NCBI RefSeq assembly: GCF_023559245.1
Contig: NZ_CP097462.1
Coordinates: forward strand, 2,290,001-2,354,000
Source of the DNA: Sphingomonas sp. KRR8
GTDB taxonomy: Bacteria > Pseudomonadota > Alphaproteobacteria > Sphingomonadales > Sphingomonadaceae
DNA: 64,000 nt
Direction: 5' to 3'
The notes under the pieces were generated by a model that saw only the letters and a program-made list of their open reading frames with translations, had not been told where the DNA came from and ran no database searches. The position numbers and the translations under genes were made by a program. Below, one piece after another: positions 48,129 through 64,000 of this stretch. Every line of letters begins with the position of its first letter. Within the stretch, counting starts at the first letter, position 1.

Positions 48129-48221
48129 GGAGACGTGGGTGAGTGGCTGAAACCAGCGGTTTGCTAAACCGCCGTACGGGGATTACTCGTACCGAGGGTT
48201 CGAATCCCTCCGTCTCCGCCA
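48129..48221 (+). tRNA. tRNA-Ser (anticodon GCT)
   Basis: A 93-base class II tRNA with encoded CCA. Acceptor GGAGACG (48129-48135) pairs with CGTCTCC (48211-48217); anticodon loop contains GCT at 48163-48165; a long variable arm and the TTCGAAT T-loop follow. It decodes AGC/AGU. The integrase gene begins 124-142 bp downstream, so this tRNA is the probable attachment site; the 3' part is fully restored. Confidence 0.97.
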
Positions 48222-48325
48222 GCGGGCTGTCCAGCGCAGTCCAGCCCCTACCAGAATCCCGCCATTGTTCGCAAGGCGTTCTGTTCACGTGTTCCAGTTT
48301 TGTCCCTTGACGACCAGCCGTAGCC

Positions 48326-48340: not shown

Positions 48341-48363
48341 AACAGATGGCTCAGAGGTCAGGG

Positions 48364-49608
48364 ATGCCACTAACGGCTAAGGACGTGAAGAACGCGAAGC
48401 CGGGCCGGAAATCTGACGGCAAGGGCCTCTACCTCCTTACTAAGCCATCTCCCGACGATCCTAGCAAAGCCGCGTCTCAATCGTGGGTGCTGCGCGTCAT
48501 GCATAATGGCGTGCGCACAGACTACGGGCTGGGCGGCGTTGCTGACCGTCCCCTCGACGTTGATCTGCCGCTGCATAAGCGCAAGTCGCTCACGCTCGCA
48601 GAGGCGCGTGAGAAGGCCCGTATCGGGCGTGAGATTGCAAAGGCCGGGCTGAACCCCTCAAGCGAGTGGCGGCGCGAAGTCGAGCAGGAGACGCCAATCT
48701 TTGAGGTCGTTGCCAAGCAATACCTCAAGGAAGTCTCGGCAAGCTGGCGGAAGGGCAAGCACGGCGCGCAGTGGATCAACACTCTCCGTGATTACGCCTT
48801 TCCGCTAATTGGGAACTTGGCCGTGGACCAAATAGACGCGGCGGCGATCCACAAGCTGCTGTTGCGTATTTGGCTAGAGAAGCCTGAAACGGCTCGGCGG
48901 GTGCGACAGCGCATTGGCGTGGTCCTGGACTATGCCCACGGTAAGGGCTGGCGGGACACTGAGGCTCCGATGCGGGCGGTCAGCCAACTGCTTGGTGGGA
49001 TCAAACAACCCAAGAAGTCACATTTTGCTTCAATGCCTCACGAAGAGCTGCCGGGCTTCCTGGCCATCCTGCGGGCTTCTGACTGGACGATCGGGAGGGC
49101 GGCACTCCAATTTCTGATTCTTACGGCGGCCCGCTCTGGTGAGGTTAGGGGCATGACGTGGCGGGAGATCGATGGCACGGAGTGGAAGATCCCCGGCGAG
49201 CGCATGAAGGCCGGCAAGGTGCACATTGTGCCCTTGGTTCCTGCCGCTGTCGCGCTGCTGGACCAGATGCGTGGCCTTCTGCCGACCAAGCCTGATGATC
49301 TGGTTTTTCCCGGTCTCAAGGGTGAGATGAGCGATGCCACTCTGGCCAAGGTCATGCGTACTGCTGGGGGCGGGGCTTACACGGTCCACGGCTTCCGCTC
49401 GACCTTCCGGGATTGGGCAGCTGACAACGGGTTCACCGACTCATGGGCGGAGAATGCCTTGGCGCACTCGAACCCTGACAAGACGGAAGCGGCGTATCGC
49501 CGGACGAGCTTCTTCGTCCAGCGTCGCGACAAGCTGATGCCAGCGTGGGCGGCTTACGCCCTTGGCGATCAGACTAACGTGGTCACGCTCGCATCTGCGC
49601 GGGCATGA
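48364..49608 (+). CDS. Tyrosine recombinase / phage integrase (DUF4102 type)
   Basis: A 414-residue integrase: N-terminal DUF4102 domain (MPLTAKDVKNAKPGRKSDGKG, YLLTKPS, SLTLAEAREKA), a SAM-like core-binding domain, and the catalytic domain with Arg in AARSGEVRGM, HGFRSTFRDWA (His/Arg) and LAHSNPDKTEAAYRR (His and nucleophile Tyr). The start at 48364 has GAGG upstream and gives the family's usual MxLT opening; ATG 48346 is six codons earlier. Such integrases typically use tRNA 3' ends. Confidence 0.95.
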   Translation: MPLTAKDVKNAKPGRKSDGKGLYLLTKPSPDDPSKAASQSWVLRVMHNGVRTDYGLGGVADRPLDVDLPLHKRKSLTLAEAREKARIGREIAKAGLNPSSEWRREVEQETPIFEVVAKQYLKEVSASWRKGKHGAQWINTLRDYAFPLIGNLAVDQIDAAAIHKLLLRIWLEKPETARRVRQRIGVVLDYAHGKGWRDTEAPMRAVSQLLGGIKQPKKSHFASMPHEELPGFLAILRASDWTIGRAALQFLILTAARSGEVRGMTWREIDGTEWKIPGERMKAGKVHIVPLVPAAVALLDQMRGLLPTKPDDLVFPGLKGEMSDATLAKVMRTAGGGAYTVHGFRSTFRDWAADNGFTDSWAENALAHSNPDKTEAAYRRTSFFVQRRDKLMPAWAAYALGDQTNVVTLASARA

Positions 49609-50418: not shown

Positions 50419-50607
50419 ATGCAAAACGAACCTCTCGCGCTTCGTGTGAACGACGCCGCCGCCTACATTGGGTTAAGCCGAAGTCGCCTCTACGAGTTGA
50501 TAGCTGATGGGGTTATTGAGGCCCGCAAGTTGGGCGCTCGCACCGTCGTGCCGACCTCCAGCCTCCGCGCCTTCGTAGAAGCCGCTCCGCGCAAGGCCGG
50601 AGCCTGA
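50419..50607 (+). CDS. Excisionase-like helix-turn-helix protein
   Basis: A 62-residue HTH_17/MerR-type protein: ALRVNDAAAYIGLSRSRLYELIADGVIEARKLG with a C-terminal wing VVPTSSLRAFVEA. This is the usual form of phage excisionases (AlpA/Xis-like) that bend DNA and direct integrase. AGGAGAAGAC upstream supports the start. Confidence 0.88.
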   Translation: MQNEPLALRVNDAAAYIGLSRSRLYELIADGVIEARKLGARTVVPTSSLRAFVEAAPRKAGA

Positions 50608-50841: not shown

Positions 50842-51071
50842 CCCGCGTTCCTCCGCACCGTCTCAGGGCGATTGCGGCCGGTCTGGCCGGTCTGAACCTG
50901 CGCCACCCGCACCAGCACGTCGTGAGTGCGATCCGCGTCACGGGCTATCCAGTCACTCCGCAAGAAGATTGGTTGCTGTGCAGTTTCGAGCGCCTGCCAG
51001 TCCTCAGCGAGGGGCGCTGGGCCGCTCTCCGTGACATCGAGAAGAGGGCAGCCGCCTATGCCGGACACTGA
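50838..51071 (+). CDS. Prophage hypothetical protein
   Basis: A 77-residue protein translated from an ATGA overlap; the 3' end overlaps the DnaB gene by 14 bp. It has an N-terminal basic helix (RLRAIAAGLAGLNLRHPHQHVVSAI) and a C-terminal acidic/basic helix (ERLPVLSEGRWAALRDIEKRAA). No family. Position immediately before the helicase suggests a replication accessory role. Confidence 0.6.
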   Translation: MTRVPPHRLRAIAAGLAGLNLRHPHQHVVSAIRVTGYPVTPQEDWLLCSFERLPVLSEGRWAALRDIEKRAAAYAGH

Positions 51072-52416
51072 CCTCACAAATCCGGAGGCCGAGCTGTGCG
51101 TCCTCGCCTCCGCTTTGCTGGATCCCCGATTGTTGGAGCGCATGGTTGAGACGGTAAGCCCGCCTGACTTTAGCGAGCCGTTCTTCGGGGCGATCTTCGA
51201 CCTGCTTGGCAAGCACCAAGCGAGGGGCAATCCGCTTACCCCTGTCACGCTCAAGCCGCTGATTGAGGGCTGGGAAGCCTACGAGCAAATGGGCGGAATG
51301 GCATGGCTGGCCGGGATCACTGGTTCAGGCGCTGCCGTTCTGGCTGGGCTCGCTTCGGCCAAGCAAGTGCGGGAGCTTGCTACCAGGCGGACGCTCGTGG
51401 CGTCTCTGCACGCTGCAGCGACCGCTGCCAGCGACTATGACGCGGAACTGCCCGACGTGCTTGTTATGGCGGACGAGGCACTCAACGCCGCCCGTGATCA
51501 GGGCGAGGAGCGCGGGGAGTATAGCGGTGCTGCCGCGCTGGACCTCGTGCTGAATGGCTTTGATGAGCCTGTCACGGGTGCACGTTGTCGCTCAATCCCC
51601 AGCCTAGACGAGCTGCTAGGCCCAATGCGGCCGAGCCACCAAATCGTGGTTGGCGCTCGTCCCGGCATGGGCAAGACCGCGCTTGCAATTTCGGCATCGC
51701 TCGGCGCGGCAGAGGCCGGGCATGGAGTCCTGTTCTTCTCGCTGGAAATGTCGGCGGAGCAGCTTGCCGAGCGAGCGGCGGCGGACCTGTGCCTAGGTCA
51801 GCGGGTGCCATACTCCTCGATTAGGGACCGCACGCTTACGGTCGAGCAGCGCCGGCACGTCTGTCGGGCGCGGGAGCGGGTGGCCGAGATGCCCCTGCAA
51901 ATCGTCGATCGGCAGGGTTTGAGGATCAGCCAAATCCGCTCGCTGGTGAGGAGGTGGAAGCGGAGGTTTGAAGCCAAGGGGCAGAAGCTAGAACTGGTGG
52001 TGATTGATTACCTGCAGCTCGTGCGGCCCGATGGCAAGCTGAACGCCTACGAGACAGTTTCCGAGGTTTCCCGCTCCATGAAGGAGATTGCCAAGGAGAA
52101 CGGCCTTGCGGTGCTCGCCCTGGCCCAGCTCAGTCGGGAAGTTGAGAAGCGTGAAGACAAGCGCCCACAACTGGCTGACCTGCGCGAGAGCGGTCAGATC
52201 GAACAGGACGCGGACGCGGTGCTCTTCCTGCTGCGGCCCGAGTATTACCTACAGGCCGCCGAGCCTGCGCCCCAAGATCCCAAAAGAGACGAATGGGAGC
52301 GGCAAATGAGGGACGCTGCCGGCTTGCTAGAGATCATCTGCGCCAAGCGCCGCAACGGTCGCACTGGCTGCCGGGTCGCGACCTTCCATTCAACCTATCA
52401 GGCGGTGCGGGGGTAA
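51058..52416 (+). CDS. DnaB-like replicative helicase
   Basis: A 452-residue helicase. The N-terminal DnaB collar domain begins NPEAELCVLASALLDPRLLERM; the RecA-type motor has Walker A GARPGMGKTALAI, FFSLEMSAEQLAER, Walker B VVIDYLQLV, and DKRPQLADLRESGQIEQDADAVLFL (motif 3/4 region), with a late CAKRRNGRTG arginine finger. Typical of phages that carry their own helicase and pair it with an initiator/loader, here the DUF1376 protein 5 bp downstream. Confidence 0.95.
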   Translation: MPDTDLTNPEAELCVLASALLDPRLLERMVETVSPPDFSEPFFGAIFDLLGKHQARGNPLTPVTLKPLIEGWEAYEQMGGMAWLAGITGSGAAVLAGLASAKQVRELATRRTLVASLHAAATAASDYDAELPDVLVMADEALNAARDQGEERGEYSGAAALDLVLNGFDEPVTGARCRSIPSLDELLGPMRPSHQIVVGARPGMGKTALAISASLGAAEAGHGVLFFSLEMSAEQLAERAAADLCLGQRVPYSSIRDRTLTVEQRRHVCRARERVAEMPLQIVDRQGLRISQIRSLVRRWKRRFEAKGQKLELVVIDYLQLVRPDGKLNAYETVSEVSRSMKEIAKENGLAVLALAQLSREVEKREDKRPQLADLRESGQIEQDADAVLFLLRPEYYLQAAEPAPQDPKRDEWERQMRDAAGLLEIICAKRRNGRTGCRVATFHSTYQAVRG

Positions 52417-52420
52417 AAAC

Positions 52421-53155
52421 ATGACGAAAAACTCTGCGAAAATCGACGCCTGGATGCCCCTTTGGATCGGAGACTATTTGGCCGACACGCAACGGCTCTC
52501 CACCGAACAGCACGGCGCATATCTGCTCCTGCTGATGGACTATTGGCGCTGCGGTGCGCTGCCGGCCGACGATGACGTGCTTGCGCGGATTGTGGGCTTG
52601 AAAGCGTCTGTGTGGGCTAAGGCGAGGCGCGCAATTCTGCCGTTCTTTGAGGAACGGGACGGATATCTGGTGCACCACCGGGTTGAGGCTGAACGGGCCA
52701 AGGCGCTGGCGAACCAAGAGCGCCGAACAGAGAAGGCGCAAGCTGCCGCACAAGCCCGTTGGTCCAGGCAGGACAATGCTCCGGGCAATGCCCCAGGCAA
52801 TGCTTCAAGCAATGCTAGAGGATATGCTCCGGAATGCCCGTCACCTTCACCTTCTTTTCCTTCGGAAAAGCCCGCTGACGCGGCGGCAGCAATCTTCGGG
52901 GGTGGGGTGGCTCTGCTCGTCCGAGCTGGCGAGACAGAGAAGCAGGCCCGGTCGTTCCTCGGCAAGTGCCGCAAGGATCACGGCAACGACAAGCTGCTGG
53001 CTGCTTTGGCTGATGCGGAGAGACTGAAACCCCTCGATCCCAAGCCGTGGCTGGTCGCTCACCTCAAGCAAGCACCGCAAGCAATCAACAGCAACGCCCT
53101 GATGGCCGGCCTCGCCCGCTCACAGGCCCTCGCAGCACAGGAGAAAGTGGCATGA
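52421..53155 (+). CDS. DUF1376 (YdaU-like) phage replication protein
   Basis: A 244-residue protein: N-terminal DUF1376 domain (AWMPLWIGDYLADTQRLSTEQHGAYLLLLMDYW ... abridged) with FFEERDGYLVHHRVEAERAKA helix, a repetitive linker (NAPGNAPGNASSNARGYAPE) encoded by 12-bp iterons, and a C-terminal domain (AGETEKQARSFLGKCRKDHG). DUF1376 proteins are replication initiator or helicase-loader-like in many phages. The next gene overlaps by ATGA. Confidence 0.88.
   Translation: MTKNSAKIDAWMPLWIGDYLADTQRLSTEQHGAYLLLLMDYWRCGALPADDDVLARIVGLKASVWAKARRAILPFFEERDGYLVHHRVEAERAKALANQERRTEKAQAAAQARWSRQDNAPGNAPGNASSNARGYAPECPSPSPSFPSEKPADAAAAIFGGGVALLVRAGETEKQARSFLGKCRKDHGNDKLLAALADAERLKPLDPKPWLVAHLKQAPQAINSNALMAGLARSQALAAQEKVA
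52773..52839. repeat. 12-bp iterons inside the DUF1376 gene; candidate phage origin
   Basis: Five consecutive 12-bp units, starting at 52773, 52785, 52797, 52809 and 52821, share the core CAATGC(T/C) (the last is TATGCT), followed by a partial sixth (AATGCC). A pyrimidine-rich, more A+T-rich tract follows (about 52840-52875). The organisation, iterons within a replication-protein gene next to an unwinding-like tract, parallels lambda ori in gene O. Confidence 0.65.
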
Positions 53156-55304: not shown

Positions 55305-55385
55305 TTAGCTGTGGAACAGGGCTGTCAGTCCTAGAACGATAGCCAAGGCTCCAAACTTCACCGCGAAGCGCTGGAGCGTGGTCAT
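55305..55385 (-). CDS. 26-residue hydrophobic micro-protein
   Basis: A 26-codon frame from an ATG that overlaps the preceding stop (ATGA) and ends just before a terminator. The product is a basic start (TTLQRFAVKF) followed by one hydrophobic helix (GALAIVLGLTALF), consistent with a membrane micro-protein. Translational coupling and the terminator support expression. Function unknown; lysis or membrane-regulatory roles are possible but unproven. Confidence 0.5.
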   Translation of the reverse strand: MTTLQRFAVKFGALAIVLGLTALFHS

Positions 55386-55558
55386 TGGTGAATTCCCCCG
55401 TGGTGTGGGCAAGTGGGATCCCCCGCGTGCAACTCGTCCAGGCGCTCGATCGCACGGGCGACAAGGCGCTTGAGGTAGGGACGGGGAAGGCTCGGGATTG
55501 CCGCTAGGGAAAGGGGGAGCGCCGCAGCGCTCCCGATGTGGTGGGTTGCCATGCTCAT
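55382..55558 (-). CDS. 58-residue small protein in the micro-gene cassette
   Basis: Fifty-eight codons with ATGA overlaps on both sides (start in the stop of the 210-residue gene, stop in the start of the 26-residue gene). It has an N-terminal Ala/Pro/Leu segment (GSAAALPLSLAAIPSLPRP) and a C-terminal helix plus a DPTCPHHGGIH motif that could bind metal. Real by its overlaps; no family. Confidence 0.55.
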   Translation of the reverse strand: MSMATHHIGSAAALPLSLAAIPSLPRPYLKRLVARAIERLDELHAGDPTCPHHGGIHQ

Positions 55559-56187
55559 GCCCTCCCGCTGGAGAGGAAGCGGCGAAGGTCGGCATGGGTT
55601 TGGTCCTCGACGCCCTCACTCCAAATGCCCTCACCGGGGGTGTAGAGCTTGCCAACCTTCCACAGCAGAGCCTCGCCGTCGGGCGCGGGCATGTCGAGCA
55701 AGGCGGTCTCGGCCTCGACCTGCAACTCTATGGCGACTTCGTAGGCGGCATGCGCCTCGCTCCAACCCGCTTTGCGGTCCAGCGCCTCGATCTGCGCCTT
55801 GCGAGCGTCCGCCGCCTCAATCAGGCGGTGGTAAGCGCGGTAGGTGTCATAGTTGCCCGGAAGGTCTTCGATGTAGCGAAGGGTCTTCATGCTGCTCCGG
55901 GCCATTGCGACATGCACCTCGTGTTCGGTGCTGATGTTGCCGGAGGGCGTCGCCAAGGTGACATGTGGCACCTTCTCCCGCAGCGCGTAGAACCGTGCGT
56001 CCGCCTCCTCGGTCAATTTATAGAGACGATCAGCCTCTCTGGTTAGGCGCTGTAGCTCGGCTGACTTGGCATTCCACTCCCGGCGGTCGGCCTGACGAGG
56101 GAGCGTGGCGGTGGCCGGAACGCTGAGGAACGCGGCGGCGGTGGCGATGCCCTTCAAAGCATCGCGACGGGTGTTACCGGCGCTCAC
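55555..56187 (-). CDS. Exported coiled-coil protein with Tat-like signal
   Basis: About 210 residues from a GTG at 56187 overlapping the previous stop (GTGA). The N-terminus NTRRDALKGIATAAAFLSVPATA has a twin-arginine-like RR motif before a hydrophobic core and an ATA cleavage site. The mature part is helical with heptad character (AELQRLTREADRLYKLTEEADARFYALRE, abridged), no catalytic motif. Second gene of the minus-strand cassette. Confidence 0.65.
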   Translation of the reverse strand: MSAGNTRRDALKGIATAAAFLSVPATATLPRQADRREWNAKSAELQRLTREADRLYKLTEEADARFYALREKVPHVTLATPSGNISTEHEVHVAMARSSMKTLRYIEDLPGNYDTYRAYHRLIEAADARKAQIEALDRKAGWSEAHAAYEVAIELQVEAETALLDMPAPDGEALLWKVGKLYTPGEGIWSEGVEDQTHADLRRFLSSGRA

Positions 56188-56300
56188 AGCCCGGCACTCC
56201 GAAGGGCCAGCGCAACAATCGGGGCGGACCCGATGAGCAGCGCGGCGATGATCGACCCTACCGGGCCAAGGCGGCTTGTGGTAATCTGCTTGGTAGCCAT
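56184..56300 (-). CDS. 38-residue single-helix membrane micro-protein
   Basis: Thirty-eight codons from ATG 56300, with AAGGAAGGGGAAA upstream, the strongest ribosome-binding site in the cassette. The basic start (MATKQITTSRLGPVG) leads to one hydrophobic helix (SIIAALLIGSAPIVALAL). First gene of a four-gene minus-strand unit driven from the XRE-side intergenic region. Confidence 0.6.
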   Translation of the reverse strand: MATKQITTSRLGPVGSIIAALLIGSAPIVALALRSAGL

Positions 56301-56382
56301 TGGAAGTTTCCCCTTCCTTGTGGTCAGCCTCGGGGGAGTGGGGCCTAATCCGCTCCCTCGGGGCACCTGCCATCTAGCAGGA

Positions 56383-58753: not shown

Positions 58754-59884
58754 ATGCCGGGAATGTTTGCCAGTTACGATCCGCGAATGATGGCTGGCGG
58801 GAGTGTTCCCAGCATCGGCGATCTTGGCGCTAGCCTTAGCGGCACCGTCCGCAAGCGCGGCCTCATCAACGTGGGCGGTCTTTCGGACGTCATGCAGGGC
58901 AATCTCGCTCAGATGGGCTCCATGCCTGTCGAGCCGCAGATGCCGGGCGGCGCTCCGGTGCAGGGCGCTGCGATGCCCCAAGGTGGAATGTTTGCTGGCG
59001 CGCCTTCGCTCGTCGGCCCGAACGCTCGCCAGCTTGGCACCGGGCTTCCGCAGTTGGATGACGGCGGCGCGCATATGAACGCCCTCCTTGGCCAGAATGC
59101 GGCCATTGGGCAGCGTCGTTCGGACAAGCGCCATGAGGTGCTGCAAGCAGTCGCCAACGGGCTGCTTTCCTTCTCGGCCAGTCAGGGCAATCCCGCTGCT
59201 CTGGCGATGCTGCAAGACAACCTCTCGCGGGGCAAGGAAGACCGTGCCGCGAAGCAGCGGATGGCGATCTATCAGGCAGAGCTTGAGGCGAAAGCGCATG
59301 AGCCCCGCACGGTCGGCAACTCACTGGTGCAACAGTCGGCGGACGGTTCTTATACGCCGCTCTACACGGCCCCGCAGCCGTTTGAGCAATATGCTTCGGC
59401 GCTCGGCTATCAGCCTGGCACTCCCGAATATACCGAGGCGGTAAAGAACTACCGGCTGGGCGCATGGAACGATGATGCCGTTGCCGCCAAGCAGGGCCTC
59501 GCTGGTTATCGTTACGACCGGATGGGCGAACTTCAGGACGACCGCCTAGCCGTCACTCGTCGCGGGCAAGACCTGATGCACACTGACCGGCAAGGCACCA
59601 TCTCCGCCACGCTCCACGGGCAGAACCTTGCTCATGGCGATCGGGTGCGCGGGCAGGATCTTGTTCACGGCGACCGCACGGCGACGATCCAGCAGCGCGG
59701 ACAGATCGCCGGGCAGACTGATGCTCGGATTAGGGGCAGCGCAGCCTATCAGGGGCGCAGTGGGCGTCACAGCAATGCCGCTGGCGGCGGTGAAACCTAT
59801 GCCAGCAATCCGAACACGGGCGCTCAGATTGTGCTCCGCAATGGCACTTGGGTTGATCCTAAGACCGGCCAACCTGTCCACTGA
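58754..59884 (+). CDS. Probable virion-associated protein
   Basis: A 376-residue protein. N-terminal part is Gly/Met/Pro-rich (PGMFASYDPRMMAGG, GGAPVQGAAMPQGGMF); a helical middle includes LQAVANGLLSFSASQGNPAALAML and QAELEAKAHEPRTVG. The C-terminal third has repeated xGQ(D/N)LxHxDR units (about residues 270-320). Low-complexity plus charged repeats recall internal virion or tail-associated proteins. The stop overlaps the start of the giant polyvalent gene by one base. No exact family. Confidence 0.6.
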   Translation: MPGMFASYDPRMMAGGSVPSIGDLGASLSGTVRKRGLINVGGLSDVMQGNLAQMGSMPVEPQMPGGAPVQGAAMPQGGMFAGAPSLVGPNARQLGTGLPQLDDGGAHMNALLGQNAAIGQRRSDKRHEVLQAVANGLLSFSASQGNPAALAMLQDNLSRGKEDRAAKQRMAIYQAELEAKAHEPRTVGNSLVQQSADGSYTPLYTAPQPFEQYASALGYQPGTPEYTEAVKNYRLGAWNDDAVAAKQGLAGYRYDRMGELQDDRLAVTRRGQDLMHTDRQGTISATLHGQNLAHGDRVRGQDLVHGDRTATIQQRGQIAGQTDARIRGSAAYQGRSGRHSNAAGGGETYASNPNTGAQIVLRNGTWVDPKTGQPVH

Positions 59885-62800
59885 TGCCGACACCTCCGCT
59901 CCCTCCGGGTTTCCAGCTTGTCCCTCCAGCAGGGGGCGGCCAGCGCGGCATGTTCGCGCCTCGCCGCGATCCCAACTTGCTCAAGCCCCTGCTCGATAGC
60001 GGGGTGGTCCCGACGAACGGCTACCGGACGCCGGCAGACATTCAGCGGCTGCGGGCGCAGGGCTACACGCCCGCTCCCAACTCGCTGCACCTCAAGGGGG
60101 ATGCCGTGGACCTCACGCCGGGAACCTCCGGCTTGAGCATGGCGCAGCTACAGGCACGGGCGCAGCAGATTGCGAAGACGTGGCCGGGTGCCAAGGTGCT
60201 GAACGAGGGCGATCACACGCACGTCCAGTTTCCGGGCTGGGGCATGGCTCCAGGCACGCCGGGAACGCCTAACAGCGGCCTCCCGCCTCTTCCCTCGGGG
60301 TTCCAGCTACAGCAGCGCGGTTCGCTCAAGGATTGGAAACCGGGCGCGGTCCACGATGGCGACACCTTCCGCTTGCCTGATGGTCGCAACGCCCGCTTGT
60401 CGGGGGCCGATGCGTTCGAGCTACAGCAGCAAGGCCGCAAGCCGGATGGTAGCCTAGTGCCGCTGGGGCAGGAGTCCCGCAATGCACTGACACAGGCGCT
60501 GCCCGGAACAGCCATCAACTTCACTGGTGGGCAGACCTATGGCCGTCCGCTCGTCACGCTCGATAAGGGCGGACTGGACCCGGCGCTTGGGATTGTCCGC
60601 TCGGGCTTGGCGCTGGCTACCCCTGAATACCTTCAGGGCGATGCTCGACTTGCTCCCTACATGGAAGCGGAGCGACTGGCCCGGCTGAACCGTCTGGGCG
60701 GGTTCGGGACCAATGCCGAGACGCCCTCTCAGTTCCGGCACAAGGACGGCCCGTGGAGCGGCACAACGCCGGGCGCTTTCGGGCAAGGCTCCGATGCCGT
60801 GTTCGGTGACGAGGCCACGCCATTTCAGGGGCTCCGTCCAGAGATTGCCAAGGGCTATCAGGACGTGCTGCTCAACCCGTCCAGCACGGCTGACGATATT
60901 CTAGCCTATGCCAAACAGCAGGGCTTTGAGGTTCGCCGGGGTGACGTTCAACGCTACGTCAAACAGCGCAACGCGGGCGGCAAGGTCGATCCCACCCTGC
61001 GCTACGCAGCCACACCCAGGCCAATCACCGATGCAGGCGATGGCAAGTTCGGCTCCTTCGCTCGCGGCTTCGGCGATCCGATCAACATGATTGATGAGCT
61101 GGGCGGTGTTGCCGACAGCGTTGGCCTGACGGGTGGCCGTGAAAACGTCTTCAACTCGAACCGACGCTTCGGTGACATTCTCTGGAACAACATCGACCAG
61201 AACCGCTCGATCCTCGCCCATGATGAGGAATACCATCCGATTGCCAGGGTGGGCGGTCAGCTAACCTCTGGCGTGCTGATGCCGTTCGGCGCTGCTGCCA
61301 AGACCCCGCTGGCGCTTGCCAAGGTCGGGGCGATTGAGGGCGGCCTGGCTGGCTTTGGCGCTGGTGAGGGTGGCATTGGGACTCGACTGCCTAACGCAGC
61401 GCTGGGAACGGCTCTGGGCGCGTCTGGCGGTTATCTGCTGGGGCATACCGCTAACGCTGCCAGCTCGCTCGTCGGCAAGCTCCGCAGCACGGCTCGACCA
61501 TTGGCGGAAGAGGCGGGCTTTGAGGCTGCGCCAATCGTCAACGATGGGGTGCAGAATGCCGGCCCGACGCCTGCCGCTCGATCGCAGCCGGAGGGTGGGG
61601 CTTATCACGCAGCGGGATTGCCACCGATGCGCTCGGGCAAGCTGCGCCATCCCGTCGCTGTCAATGCAGCCATGCGGGCGGAAGACGGCGCTCCCAAGCT
61701 TGTCGGTCCTGCAATGGCGGATGCCCCTCCGCCGCCTCCTGGCTTCGTGCCTCATGCGCCGTTTGGCGTGACCCGTCCGATGGGCTCGCCCCTGACCGCT
61801 CCAGAGATTGCCAGGCTGGGTGAGGAAGTAATGCCCGGCTCGGTCCTTGCTCGACCGGCTAGCAATGTCTCCACGCTTGAAGAGGCAATGAAGGCCAACC
61901 CCGGCACCTCGCGGCTGCTTGAGTCCCCGGACGAGTTCAATTTGCTGGTAGGCCGCAAGGTCCGCACCAGTGCGGGCGGTCAAATCAGGTTGCGGGGTCC
62001 GCTCGATCTAACGCAGCGCATCCGCCAGATGGGCGGCGTCAACGATGTGGGCGGTGATCTGGCGCACTCCGGGATTACCAATGCGCCTCGCCGAATGGAC
62101 TTTGGCGGAAACGAGCAGTTCCTCGGCAAGCTGGTTCACCCTGATGGCATGGGCATGGATGAGGCTGCCGCCCGCCTGATCGAAGACGGCCATCTGCCGG
62201 AAGGCACCGGCACTGAAGACCTCAAGGCCATGCTGCTCGATGAGCAGAACGGGCATCGCTACTTTCATCCGGACGATCTGAACGAGGTTGCCGACTTCAC
62301 TGACGCCCGCCGCCAACGCTTCGGTATCGAGCAGGCGGCAGCGGACGGGAGCCCGCTCCACGAGGACATTGGGCAGACCGTCAATCTCGACGACCTCGCC
62401 GCCAACACTCCGCCCACCTCCGCCTATGAGGACGGGCCTCGCCTCACGGGCAAGGTTGGCAACATCAACCTCGACCGGCTGGAAAACGCCGGCGACGTGT
62501 CACAGCTTATCGACCACATCTCTTCGCGAGTCGGTGGGTTCGATGCGGCGCAGCGTGGACGGATCACTCACGAGGAAACGCAGAAGCTGGCGGCTGAAAT
62601 GGGCCTCAAGCCCGAGCAGTTGCTACAGCGCAAAGCTGGGCAGGCTCTCAATGCCGAACAGCTCTATGCGGTACGGACGCTTGCTCAAGCCTCCCGCCAG
62701 ACGGTCGCCAAGCTGGCGCAAAAGGCTGCGAACAGCGGGGCCGACGAGGACTTGCTGGCTTTCCGTAAGGCATGGGTGCGGCACGTTGCGATCGAGGAAC

Positions 62801-64000
62801 AGGTGTCCGGCGCAACGGCGGAAGCTGGCCGTGCGCTCCAGGCTATGCGGATGCTCGCAAAGGGTGGGGACGCTCGAACCGATGCCGTGAGGGCTTACCT
62901 CAAGGGTGCTGGCGGCTCCGAGAATATCAGGGATGCGGCGCAACGGATTGTCGATCTCATCGAAGATCCGGCCAAGGCTGACCACTTCATGCGCGAAGGC
63001 CTCAAGCCAACGTGGCGCGACAAGTTCAATGAGCTGTGGGTCAACTCGCTGCTGAGCGGCCCGAAGACGCACGTGGTCAACTTCGTCGGCAACGCGCTCA
63101 CCTCGCTCTACTCGCTGCCCGAACAGGGACTTGCGGCCGGCATTGGCAAGGTGCTGGGTTCGGCTGACCGTTCCTATGGCGGTGAGGTAGGGGCGCGTGT
63201 CTCGGGCCTCGCAAACTCTGCCGTAGAAGGCATCAAGAGCGCCAGGCAGGCGTTCATGACTGGTGAGCCGCTGGACGCTGCCACCAAGGTTGAGGCTATC
63301 CACCATGACGCGATCGGGGGCAGGCTCGGTAAGATTGTTCGACTGCCAACCCGTGCGCTGACGGCTGCCGATGAGTTCTGGAAGACCATCAACCGCAACG
63401 CGGAGCTTCACGCCCTCGCCTATCGCCGGGCCGTGAACGAGACGAGCGGCGCTGCCGAACGCAAGGCCCGTTACGAGCAGCTTGTCCGCAACCCTGATGG
63501 CGGTATGCTCAGGCAGGCGGATGAAGCTGCCCGCTATTACACCTTTCAAAAGGAACTCGGCGCGTCGGGTAAGGCGATCCAGCACTGGGCGAACGAGACG
63601 CCCGGCGCGAAGATCATCGTGCCGTTTGTGAAAACCCCCATCAACATTCTAAAGTTTGCCGGGGAGCGGTCGCCGTTCGCCATGCTGAGCAAGAATGTCC
63701 GCTCCGAGATAATGAAGGGCGGGCAGGCTCGGGACCAAGCTCTCGCCAAGATGACGCTCGGCTCTGGCCTGTCTGTGGCGGCGGTGCTCGCGGCCATGAA
63801 CGGCAAGGTCACGGGCGGCGGTCCTGTCGATCCCCAGGAACGCATGGCGTTGCAACAGTCGGGCTGGCAACCTTACTCGCTGCGGGTTGGTGACAAGTGG
63901 ATCAGCTATCAACGCTTTGATCCGCTCTCGACCTTGTTTGGTGCGGCGGCGGACTTTGCCGAAATTGGCCGCTACGCCCGTCCGGGCGAAGCCGACAACC
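59884..64000 (+). CDS. Giant polyvalent phage protein: M15 peptidase + SNase + LPD38-like, incomplete
   Basis: Open for at least 1,372 codons and still open at the window edge. The N-terminal domain (about 45-120) has the M15-type zinc pattern NSLHLKGDAVDL (H69, D76) and GDHTHVQF. It is followed by an SNase-like nuclease (about 148-275): HDGDTFRL (D160), ARLSGADAFE (R171, D176, E179), TYGRPLVT (R221), ending ERLARLNRLGGFG. After a long multi-domain middle with an Asp/Arg-rich helical part (TAEAGRALQAMRMLAKGG), the C-terminal region matches LPD38-like: ELWVNSLLSGPKTHVVNFVGNALTSL, with KIIVPFVKTPINILKFA. Virion-packaged, injected or maturation-linked roles are inferred. Starts at the ATG overlapping the previous stop. 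Confidence 0.82.
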   Translation, partial: MPTPPLPPGFQLVPPAGGGQRGMFAPRRDPNLLKPLLDSGVVPTNGYRTPADIQRLRAQGYTPAPNSLHLKGDAVDLTPGTSGLSMAQLQARAQQIAKTWPGAKVLNEGDHTHVQFPGWGMAPGTPGTPNSGLPPLPSGFQLQQRGSLKDWKPGAVHDGDTFRLPDGRNARLSGADAFELQQQGRKPDGSLVPLGQESRNALTQALPGTAINFTGGQTYGRPLVTLDKGGLDPALGIVRSGLALATPEYLQGDARLAPYMEAERLARLNRLGGFGTNAETPSQFRHKDGPWSGTTPGAFGQGSDAVFGDEATPFQGLRPEIAKGYQDVLLNPSSTADDILAYAKQQGFEVRRGDVQRYVKQRNAGGKVDPTLRYAATPRPITDAGDGKFGSFARGFGDPINMIDELGGVADSVGLTGGRENVFNSNRRFGDILWNNIDQNRSILAHDEEYHPIARVGGQLTSGVLMPFGAAAKTPLALAKVGAIEGGLAGFGAGEGGIGTRLPNAALGTALGASGGYLLGHTANAASSLVGKLRSTARPLAEEAGFEAAPIVNDGVQNAGPTPAARSQPEGGAYHAAGLPPMRSGKLRHPVAVNAAMRAEDGAPKLVGPAMADAPPPPPGFVPHAPFGVTRPMGSPLTAPEIARLGEEVMPGSVLARPASNVSTLEEAMKANPGTSRLLESPDEFNLLVGRKVRTSAGGQIRLRGPLDLTQRIRQMGGVNDVGGDLAHSGITNAPRRMDFGGNEQFLGKLVHPDGMGMDEAAARLIEDGHLPEGTGTEDLKAMLLDEQNGHRYFHPDDLNEVADFTDARRQRFGIEQAAADGSPLHEDIGQTVNLDDLAANTPPTSAYEDGPRLTGKVGNINLDRLENAGDVSQLIDHISSRVGGFDAAQRGRITHEETQKLAAEMGLKPEQLLQRKAGQALNAEQLYAVRTLAQASRQTVAKLAQKAANSGADEDLLAFRKAWVRHVAIEEQVSGATAEAGRALQAMRMLAKGGDARTDAVRAYLKGAGGSENIRDAAQRIVDLIEDPAKADHFMREGLKPTWRDKFNELWVNSLLSGPKTHVVNFVGNALTSLYSLPEQGLAAGIGKVLGSADRSYGGEVGARVSGLANSAVEGIKSARQAFMTGEPLDAATKVEAIHHDAIGGRLGKIVRLPTRALTAADEFWKTINRNAELHALAYRRAVNETSGAAERKARYEQLVRNPDGGMLRQADEAARYYTFQKELGASGKAIQHWANETPGAKIIVPFVKTPINILKFAGERSPFAMLSKNVRSEIMKGGQARDQALAKMTLGSGLSVAAVLAAMNGKVTGGGPVDPQERMALQQSGWQPYSLRVGDKWISYQRFDPLSTLFGAAADFAEIGRYARPGEADN

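Follow-up and report, generated by a model that had tools for sequence, protein, structure and literature searches.

Among described systems, those closest to the locus reported here are the gp16 homologues of podovirus-type phages, phage polyvalent proteins and the satellites of Gram-negative bacteria. As set out in the part of PMC8954989 available to us, gp16 homologues are mosaic, their hydrolase domain varies and can move to another ejection protein, and the ejection proteins stay inside the head until ejection; neither nuclease nor peptidase turned up in a search of the main text of that paper. Polyvalent proteins, in the available part of PMC5512222, carry enzymes thought to be injected along with the DNA. 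Gram-negative PICIs are described in the available part of PMC10111431 as having a similar zone order, an inward integrase and captured late genes. Among the matches listed from the open-licence literature, neither satellites with ejection proteins or injectosomes nor a nuclease on ejection-type proteins was reported. The E3 protein studied here links these subjects, that is to say polyvalent injected enzymes, the mosaic ejection protein gp16 and satellites that capture late genes.

The window is the whole 64,000-nt stretch of Sphingomonas sp. KRR8 DNA that was analyzed. Its E3 gene is carried by an integrative element of 21.1 kb with an integrase, a replication helicase and the E2-E3 pair, and in which no head genes were found. 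The features are as follows.

48129..48221, plus strand: tRNA-Ser (GCT), the integration site, whose 3' end begins the left copy of an 18-bp repeat
48207-48224: left copy of the exact 18-bp repeat; the right copy is at window-numbered 69355 (L002:11356)
48346..49608, plus strand: tyrosine integrase, aimed into the element (phrog_1, 2.1e-51; PF22022/PF00589/PF13356)
50419..50607, plus strand: HTH_17/AlpA-like regulator or excisionase (PF12728, 7e-11; phrog_66, 1.1e-5)
50926..52416, plus strand: DnaB-like replicative helicase (PF03796, 4e-69; phrog_19, 2.7e-84)
52421..53155, plus strand: DUF1376 primosomal-type protein (PF07120, 3.3e-20; phrog_3992, primosomal, 8.5e-26)
58754..59884, plus strand: E2, probable second ejection gene (42% to the E2 of G040b), homologous to the gene preceding E3 in relatives
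59884..64000, plus strand: E3, polyvalent gp16-like ejection protein (residues 1-1372 of 1647)
59986..60243, plus strand: M15-type peptidase domain of E3 (about residues 35-120; H69, D76, H111, H113)
60340..60738, plus strand: SNase-type nuclease domain of E3 (about residues 153-285; D160, R171, D176, E179, R221)
62461..64000, plus strand: start of the helical, gp16 / internal-virion-protein-D-like C-terminal part of E3 (residues 860 onward)

Inspection of the left end places the integrase between exact att repeats, an arrangement by which satellites are recognized, with the HTH_17 gene beside it; against the AlpA model itself (PF05930) that gene scores 19.2 bits, below the cut-off of 21. Toward the right, the start codon of E3 shares one base with the stop of the preceding 376-aa gene, E2, so that the two are probably coupled. 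E3 is placed directly behind an overlapping E2, as the third gene of a cassette would be; E1 was not recognized in the window element and is present in G018 and G076. The window E2 has no PHROG or Pfam match of its own. It weakly matches the E2 of G018 (4.9e-5), which in turn matches phrog_917 (3.9e-4) and, in phage VSN-002, the P22-type translocase (1.6e-19). No terminase, portal, coat, capsid or tail-tube gene was found in the window element.

Between these two ends, about 5 kb of the element (53.5-58.2 kb) has mostly small ORFs or ORFs on the opposite strand, a state that decay would leave. One gene here, at 55555-56373 on the minus strand, has a small neighbor at 55382-55558, also on the minus strand. 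An opposite-strand gene of 198-272 aa recurs in five elements (window, G018, G040a, G206 and G210), often with the small neighbor too, and is a candidate cargo gene. Behind E3, a 448-aa gene (L002:7062-8408, window-numbered 65061-66407) matches nothing in phage records, PHROGs or Pfam.

The first-pass annotation of this DNA had described E3 as one uninterrupted frame, and with the rest of the gene obtained this holds: the frame is open at the window end and runs on to window-numbered 64827, giving a protein of 1,647 aa. A short PPLPPGFQL stretch is followed by the M15-type domain (35-120), a variant of the stretch at 135, the SNase-type domain (153-285), a middle part that includes a run rich in glycine, and the helical C-terminal part (860-1600). 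Stretches resembling PPLPPGFQL lie at residues 5, 135, 616, 1593 and 1634. Many E3 proteins repeat a short motif, own to each protein, at both ends and beside the movable domains, with the variants PPLPPGFxL, DEWAGFEEV and WPGxxV. Similarity between N-end and C-end is higher within proteins (mean score 49.7) than between them (38.5; Mann-Whitney p 1.8e-4, kinship ignored), if not in every protein, since the window E3 scores 45 versus 54, a score inflated because M15 lies at opposite ends. The repeats could serve for docking or mark points of recombination by which M15 changes place. A scan of viral contigs gave no close relatives of the whole E3 protein, and a genome-contig scan with its N-terminal 300 aa gave 42 pattern matches, none of which was confirmed.

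To identify the scaffold, the C-terminal part of E3 was compared with phage records, structures and protein families. It matches 85 of 50,697 phage records, and among the 40 of these 85 that were listed many are annotated as internal virion protein or internal virion protein D. It also matches phrog_6651. The best of its 53 matches at E<=0.001 among viral predicted structures has 4.5e-32, and both polyvalent and internal virion proteins are represented. The neighbors include ART-PolyVal proteins, large polyvalent proteins and two entries named nuclease, and nuclease cargo on such a scaffold therefore has some precedent. In the PDB, the C-terminal profile found no significant match and the C-terminal model none at E<=0.001. 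In phage ProddE, the internal virion protein D gene comes after those for internal virion proteins B and C and before the tail fiber. We conclude that E3 is very probably an ejection protein of the T7 gp16 / internal virion protein D kind, polyvalent in type; judged from sequence, it is the largest protein of a podovirus-type DNA-ejection set in the P22 gp7-gp20-gp16 or T7 gp14-15-16 layout. The N-terminal lytic transglycosylase of gp16 was not found in E3, where an M15-type peptidase takes that place. Several disparate enzyme domains lie on one polypeptide, as in phage polyvalent proteins. The proposal of a virion-type polyvalent polypeptide is borne out, as are its entry-type peptidase and its SNase-type domain with the key residues. 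An LPD38-like region had also been proposed and finds no specific support; Pfam lists none at E<=1, and some structural neighbors are named large polyvalent protein associated.

Both M15 zinc motifs, HxxGxAxD and HxH, are complete in the window E3, in agreement with the first-pass annotation. The H, G and D of the first motif and both H of the second are invariant in 11 of 11 copies, and the A position varies in some. The window E3 scores 13.5 and 18.9 bits against the Pfam M15 model, under its gathering score of 23.2; the best copy reaches 3.3e-7. The five key SNase positions claimed earlier (D160, R171, D176, E179 and R221), which we take to be catalytic, are present within an SNase fold and invariant in 10 of 10 copies. 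The positions presumably corresponding to T41 and P42 of SNase are alanine and phenylalanine (DAFE). No M15 chain appears among the VIA-align matches listed, because SNase fills the list, and a PDB search with the single N-terminal sequence gave no significant match. The closest E3 pair, two copies in G040 that are 83% identical and may stem from two strains because the assembly is 86% complete and 4% contaminated, has a dN/dS of 0.15 overall, 0.12 for M15 and 0.25 for SNase, so that both domains lie below 1. At the level of sequence, E3 is confirmed to carry an M15-type peptidase and an SNase-type nuclease with catalytic positions intact, and both are predicted to be active enzymes.

Matches to the E3 scaffold at E<=1e-10 occur in 23 of 397 sampled genomes of the host family. 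For the locus set, 22 genomes contributed 23 loci in which E3 is long, the window counted; left out were G046 (a 4.5-kb contig), G081 and G096 (distant or partial scaffold), and G303, G405, G448 and G458. Only short or partial E3 matches are present in G303, G405 and G458, which may be decayed copies. Homologues of the window E3 are long open frames at 37-60% identity, and the E3 end of G066 departs from the other copies. The order M15-SNase-E3 occurs in five of the 23 loci (window, G018, two in G040, and G066) and SNase-E3-M15, with M15 at the far C-terminus, in nine; five have SNase-E3, two M15-E3 and two neither domain. Each of the 19 loci with SNase has it at the N-terminus, and M15 may lie at either end. 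Such varied arrangements indicate that the modules are swappable. The fusion order had been called unfamiliar; the combination itself recurs, with both domains on E3 in 14 of 23 loci (window counted), on a scaffold recognizable as a gp16-like ejection protein.

An alignment of the E3 C-terminal part led to 144 viral contigs, of which the best 80 were kept. SNase is fused to E3 in one of the 80 (L148) and M15 in one (L176), in a set where truncation near the 5' end affects 14. For N-terminal parts, a similarity filter reduced 69 pieces to 51; eight were excluded (seven with a frame not ending at the E3 match, plus L151), and the remaining 43 were used together with pieces from G205 and G096. 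Of the 45 parts so scanned (43 viral contigs, two genome relatives), ten carry ART-PolyVal and one InPase. Among 27 gene families recurrent on viral E3 contigs, only E3 matches the 13 loci tested, and the 23 loci compared with the viral-contig families yield one weak f26 match, in G428.

Each locus was also inspected for signs of an integrative element. An integrase was recognized in 16 of the 23 loci, in 15 of them upstream of E3 on the same strand, 6.3-19.7 kb away, and in one on the opposite strand; four of the seven loci where none was recognized are near contig ends. Exact tRNA-anchored repeats of 18-63 bp (candidate att), 17.5-26.6 kb apart, bound eight loci (window, G018, G050, G076, G210, G306, G369 and G396). 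Replication genes differ, with DnaB in the window and a CHC2/Toprim primase or DUF3987 in other elements. In G306, a 757-aa gene just upstream of E2 (L075:14686-16959) is 62% identical to a gene of the G074 phage region, and that counterpart matches tail-spike families; some elements may also carry a receptor-binding protein.

With the panels used, no head gene was matched near E3 in 22 of the 23 loci, and just one has a P22 portal or T7 connector close to E3. That locus, in G048, is a run of podovirus genes with a phrog_38 terminase, a P22-type portal, a major head protein, Hc3 and a DNA-ejection gene, then E3, which carries M15 without SNase; no integrase was recognized there. Outside the 23, a terminase, a capsid and a T7-type connector adjoin the distant scaffold of G096. 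A PHROG and Pfam scan of 147 ORFs from eight elements (134 of 135 listed ORFs, plus 13 of the window element) revealed no terminase, portal or capsid among the matches listed, which cover 25 of 65 PHROG and 25 of 40 Pfam families; the window integrase, DUF1376 gene and neighbors were scanned separately, and the first 6 kb of the G018 element in part. The phmmer panel is not fully sensitive, because it missed the G074 phage region that PHROGs recognizes.

Genome-wide, a P22 portal occurs in one of the 22 E3 genomes (G048) and a T7 connector in two (G205 and G428), in these two at a distance from E3. Of the 21 genomes whose E3 loci gave no head gene, 19 yielded neither a P22 portal nor a T7 connector at any position, and a resident podovirus helper is therefore usually not seen. 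The T7-type head-tail connectors at G205:C1:789729 and G428:C81:63217, in genomes with headless E3 loci, are candidate markers of resident helpers. Two terminase families were searched in 13 genomes and phrog_38 in ten more; matches lie elsewhere in many of these genomes, and only the phrog_38 match of G048 adjoins E3. The window's own genome has a large-terminase gene at G000:C1:384313-385455, about 1.97 Mb away. The phrog_38 terminase (E<=1e-40) is present in 65 of 397 family genomes versus eight of 23 E3-match genomes, and with a Fisher p of 0.036 that ignores kinship this co-occurrence was set aside as too weak to serve as helper evidence.

The first-pass annotation had suggested a particle carrying both a lysin and a nuclease. 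No head genes were found in E3's own element, and if the element is alive, its particle would therefore have to come from another phage. The best reading is a satellite-like island whose only recognized virion module is the ejection cassette and which would depend on a helper. The limited size range, exact att repeats, inward integrase and recurrent headlessness beside an open E3 all speak for it. A helper phage would supply heads, and E2 and E3 would be built into the particles carrying the element. On infection, E3 would exit the head first, ahead of the DNA; its M15 domain would trim murein, replacing the lysozyme-type domain of T7 gp16, and its helical C-terminal part would help to form a trans-envelope channel, against which counts a hydropathy scan with almost no strong membrane helix in E3 (three windows over 1.2). 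The SNase domain would be released into the periplasm or cytoplasm. Enzymes of the SNase family are Ca2+-dependent nucleases, and Ca2+ is scarce in the cytoplasm and abundant in the periplasm and outside the cell. Its calcium makes the periplasm the likelier site; there the channel would cover the element's own DNA and leave rival DNA exposed. SNase would act on nucleic acid that lacks protection, most plausibly on DNA of a rival or helper that enters outside the protein channel, and so give the new element an early advantage. A co-packaged nuclease threatens its own genome unless held inactive, which counts against the model. We regard the whole chain, in which E2 and E3 are packaged by a helper and ejected and M15 and SNase act on entry, as evenly balanced between right and wrong, part of it being inferred. 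The wider proposal, that phage satellites without a head but with an ejection machine of their own, in 13 genera of one family, refit a helper's particle with an entry device that bears a wall peptidase and a nuclease, is tentative and leans toward doubt; the proposed SNase target, rival or helper DNA cut from the periplasm, is a shade more doubtful.

The main rival of this satellite reading is a prophage in decay whose head module is gone, with E3 a still-open relic and the fusion reflecting the ancestral phage only. The head genes that accompany the same scaffold in G048 agree with it, as do the poorly coding middle (about 5 kb) and unrecognized E1 of the window element, the short or partial E3 copies of G303, G405 and G458, the deviating E3 end of G066 and the lack of a visible podovirus helper in most E3 genomes; defective prophages are common, according to the available part of PMC11389934. 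Because loci were chosen for containing E3, an intact ejection cassette is in part a product of the sampling. Decay fits poorly with 22 of 23 loci lacking head matches, yet eight keeping exact tRNA-anchored repeats 17.5-26.6 kb apart, and with long open E3 frames at 37-60% identity and a dN/dS of 0.15 in the closest pair. A decayed prophage is a serious possibility that we nonetheless consider somewhat unlikely, and a satellite-like island remains our best reading.

Other roles for the SNase domain were weighed in the same way. That polyvalent enzymes are thought to be injected with the DNA (PMC5512222, available part) would suit a takeover enzyme acting on the host chromosome or cytoplasmic RNA right after injection, as would the ART-PolyVal domains in ten of the 45 scanned N-terminal parts (43 from viral contigs). 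Incoming DNA would be cut too, however, and a lysogenizing element gains little by killing its host. With the Ca2+ that SNase requires scarce in the cytoplasm, we find such takeover unlikely. A non-catalytic module, binding nucleic acid or purely architectural, would account for the alanine and phenylalanine of DAFE and for a dN/dS of 0.25, above the 0.12 of M15, and is rather improbable given D160, R171, D176, E179 and R221 unchanged in every one of ten copies. Trimming of extracellular or periplasmic DNA, clearing the path for particle or channel, would draw on the Ca2+ of the periplasm and exterior. It is improbable for a protein of a class held inside the head until ejection (PMC8954989, available part).

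Taken at face value, these loci look like a polyvalent ejection protein with recurring, permutable M15/SNase cargo on apparently head-less satellite elements. Provided that the elements are live, entry joins assembly among the steps that satellites can hijack; such a satellite would control particle entry, and which other DNA survives entry, rather than particle building. The occurrence of M15 at either end of E3 can serve as a natural experiment on the freedom with which an ejection protein accepts cargo, and through the SNase domain it becomes testable whether active nucleases are injected by phages or satellites.

Comparison with known systems begins with T7 gp16 and internal virion protein D, with which E3 shares a large size, a probable standing as third ejection protein and a helical C-terminal part. 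Like T7 gp16 (and P22 gp16 by position), it has a murein hydrolase at the N-terminus and follows smaller ejection genes, as far as the available part of PMC8954989 describes them. Unlike T7 gp16, E3 has an M15 peptidase in place of the lytic transglycosylase, carries SNase in addition, can have M15 at either end and, in the window element, stands without any head gene found next to it. Phage-type polyvalent proteins (PMC5512222, available part) likewise have unrelated enzyme domains on a virion-associated scaffold, and the E3 scaffold in viral contigs bears ART-PolyVal and InPase; the main text of that paper mentions no SNase, staphylococcal nuclease or M15. Sphingopyxis phage VSN-002 (MZ127829, P22-type) resembles the elements in its E1 and E2, a DNA-transfer protein and a P22-type translocase that match those of G018 (9.6e-69 and 1.6e-19), and in its DnaB, which matches that of the window (3.3e-114). 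In contrast to the window element, VSN-002 has portal, coat and terminase, and its third ejection gene does not match three profiles of E3. Gram-negative PICIs and satellites, in the available parts of PMC10111431, PMC13376191 and PMC4936722, share with the window element an integrase at att repeats, replication genes, a length of about 20 kb and an inward integrase; the window element also has a possible AlpA-like gene, and no complete virion set was found in it. Those elements have captured late genes, capsid most often, or no structural genes, while the late zone of the window element is an ejection cassette.
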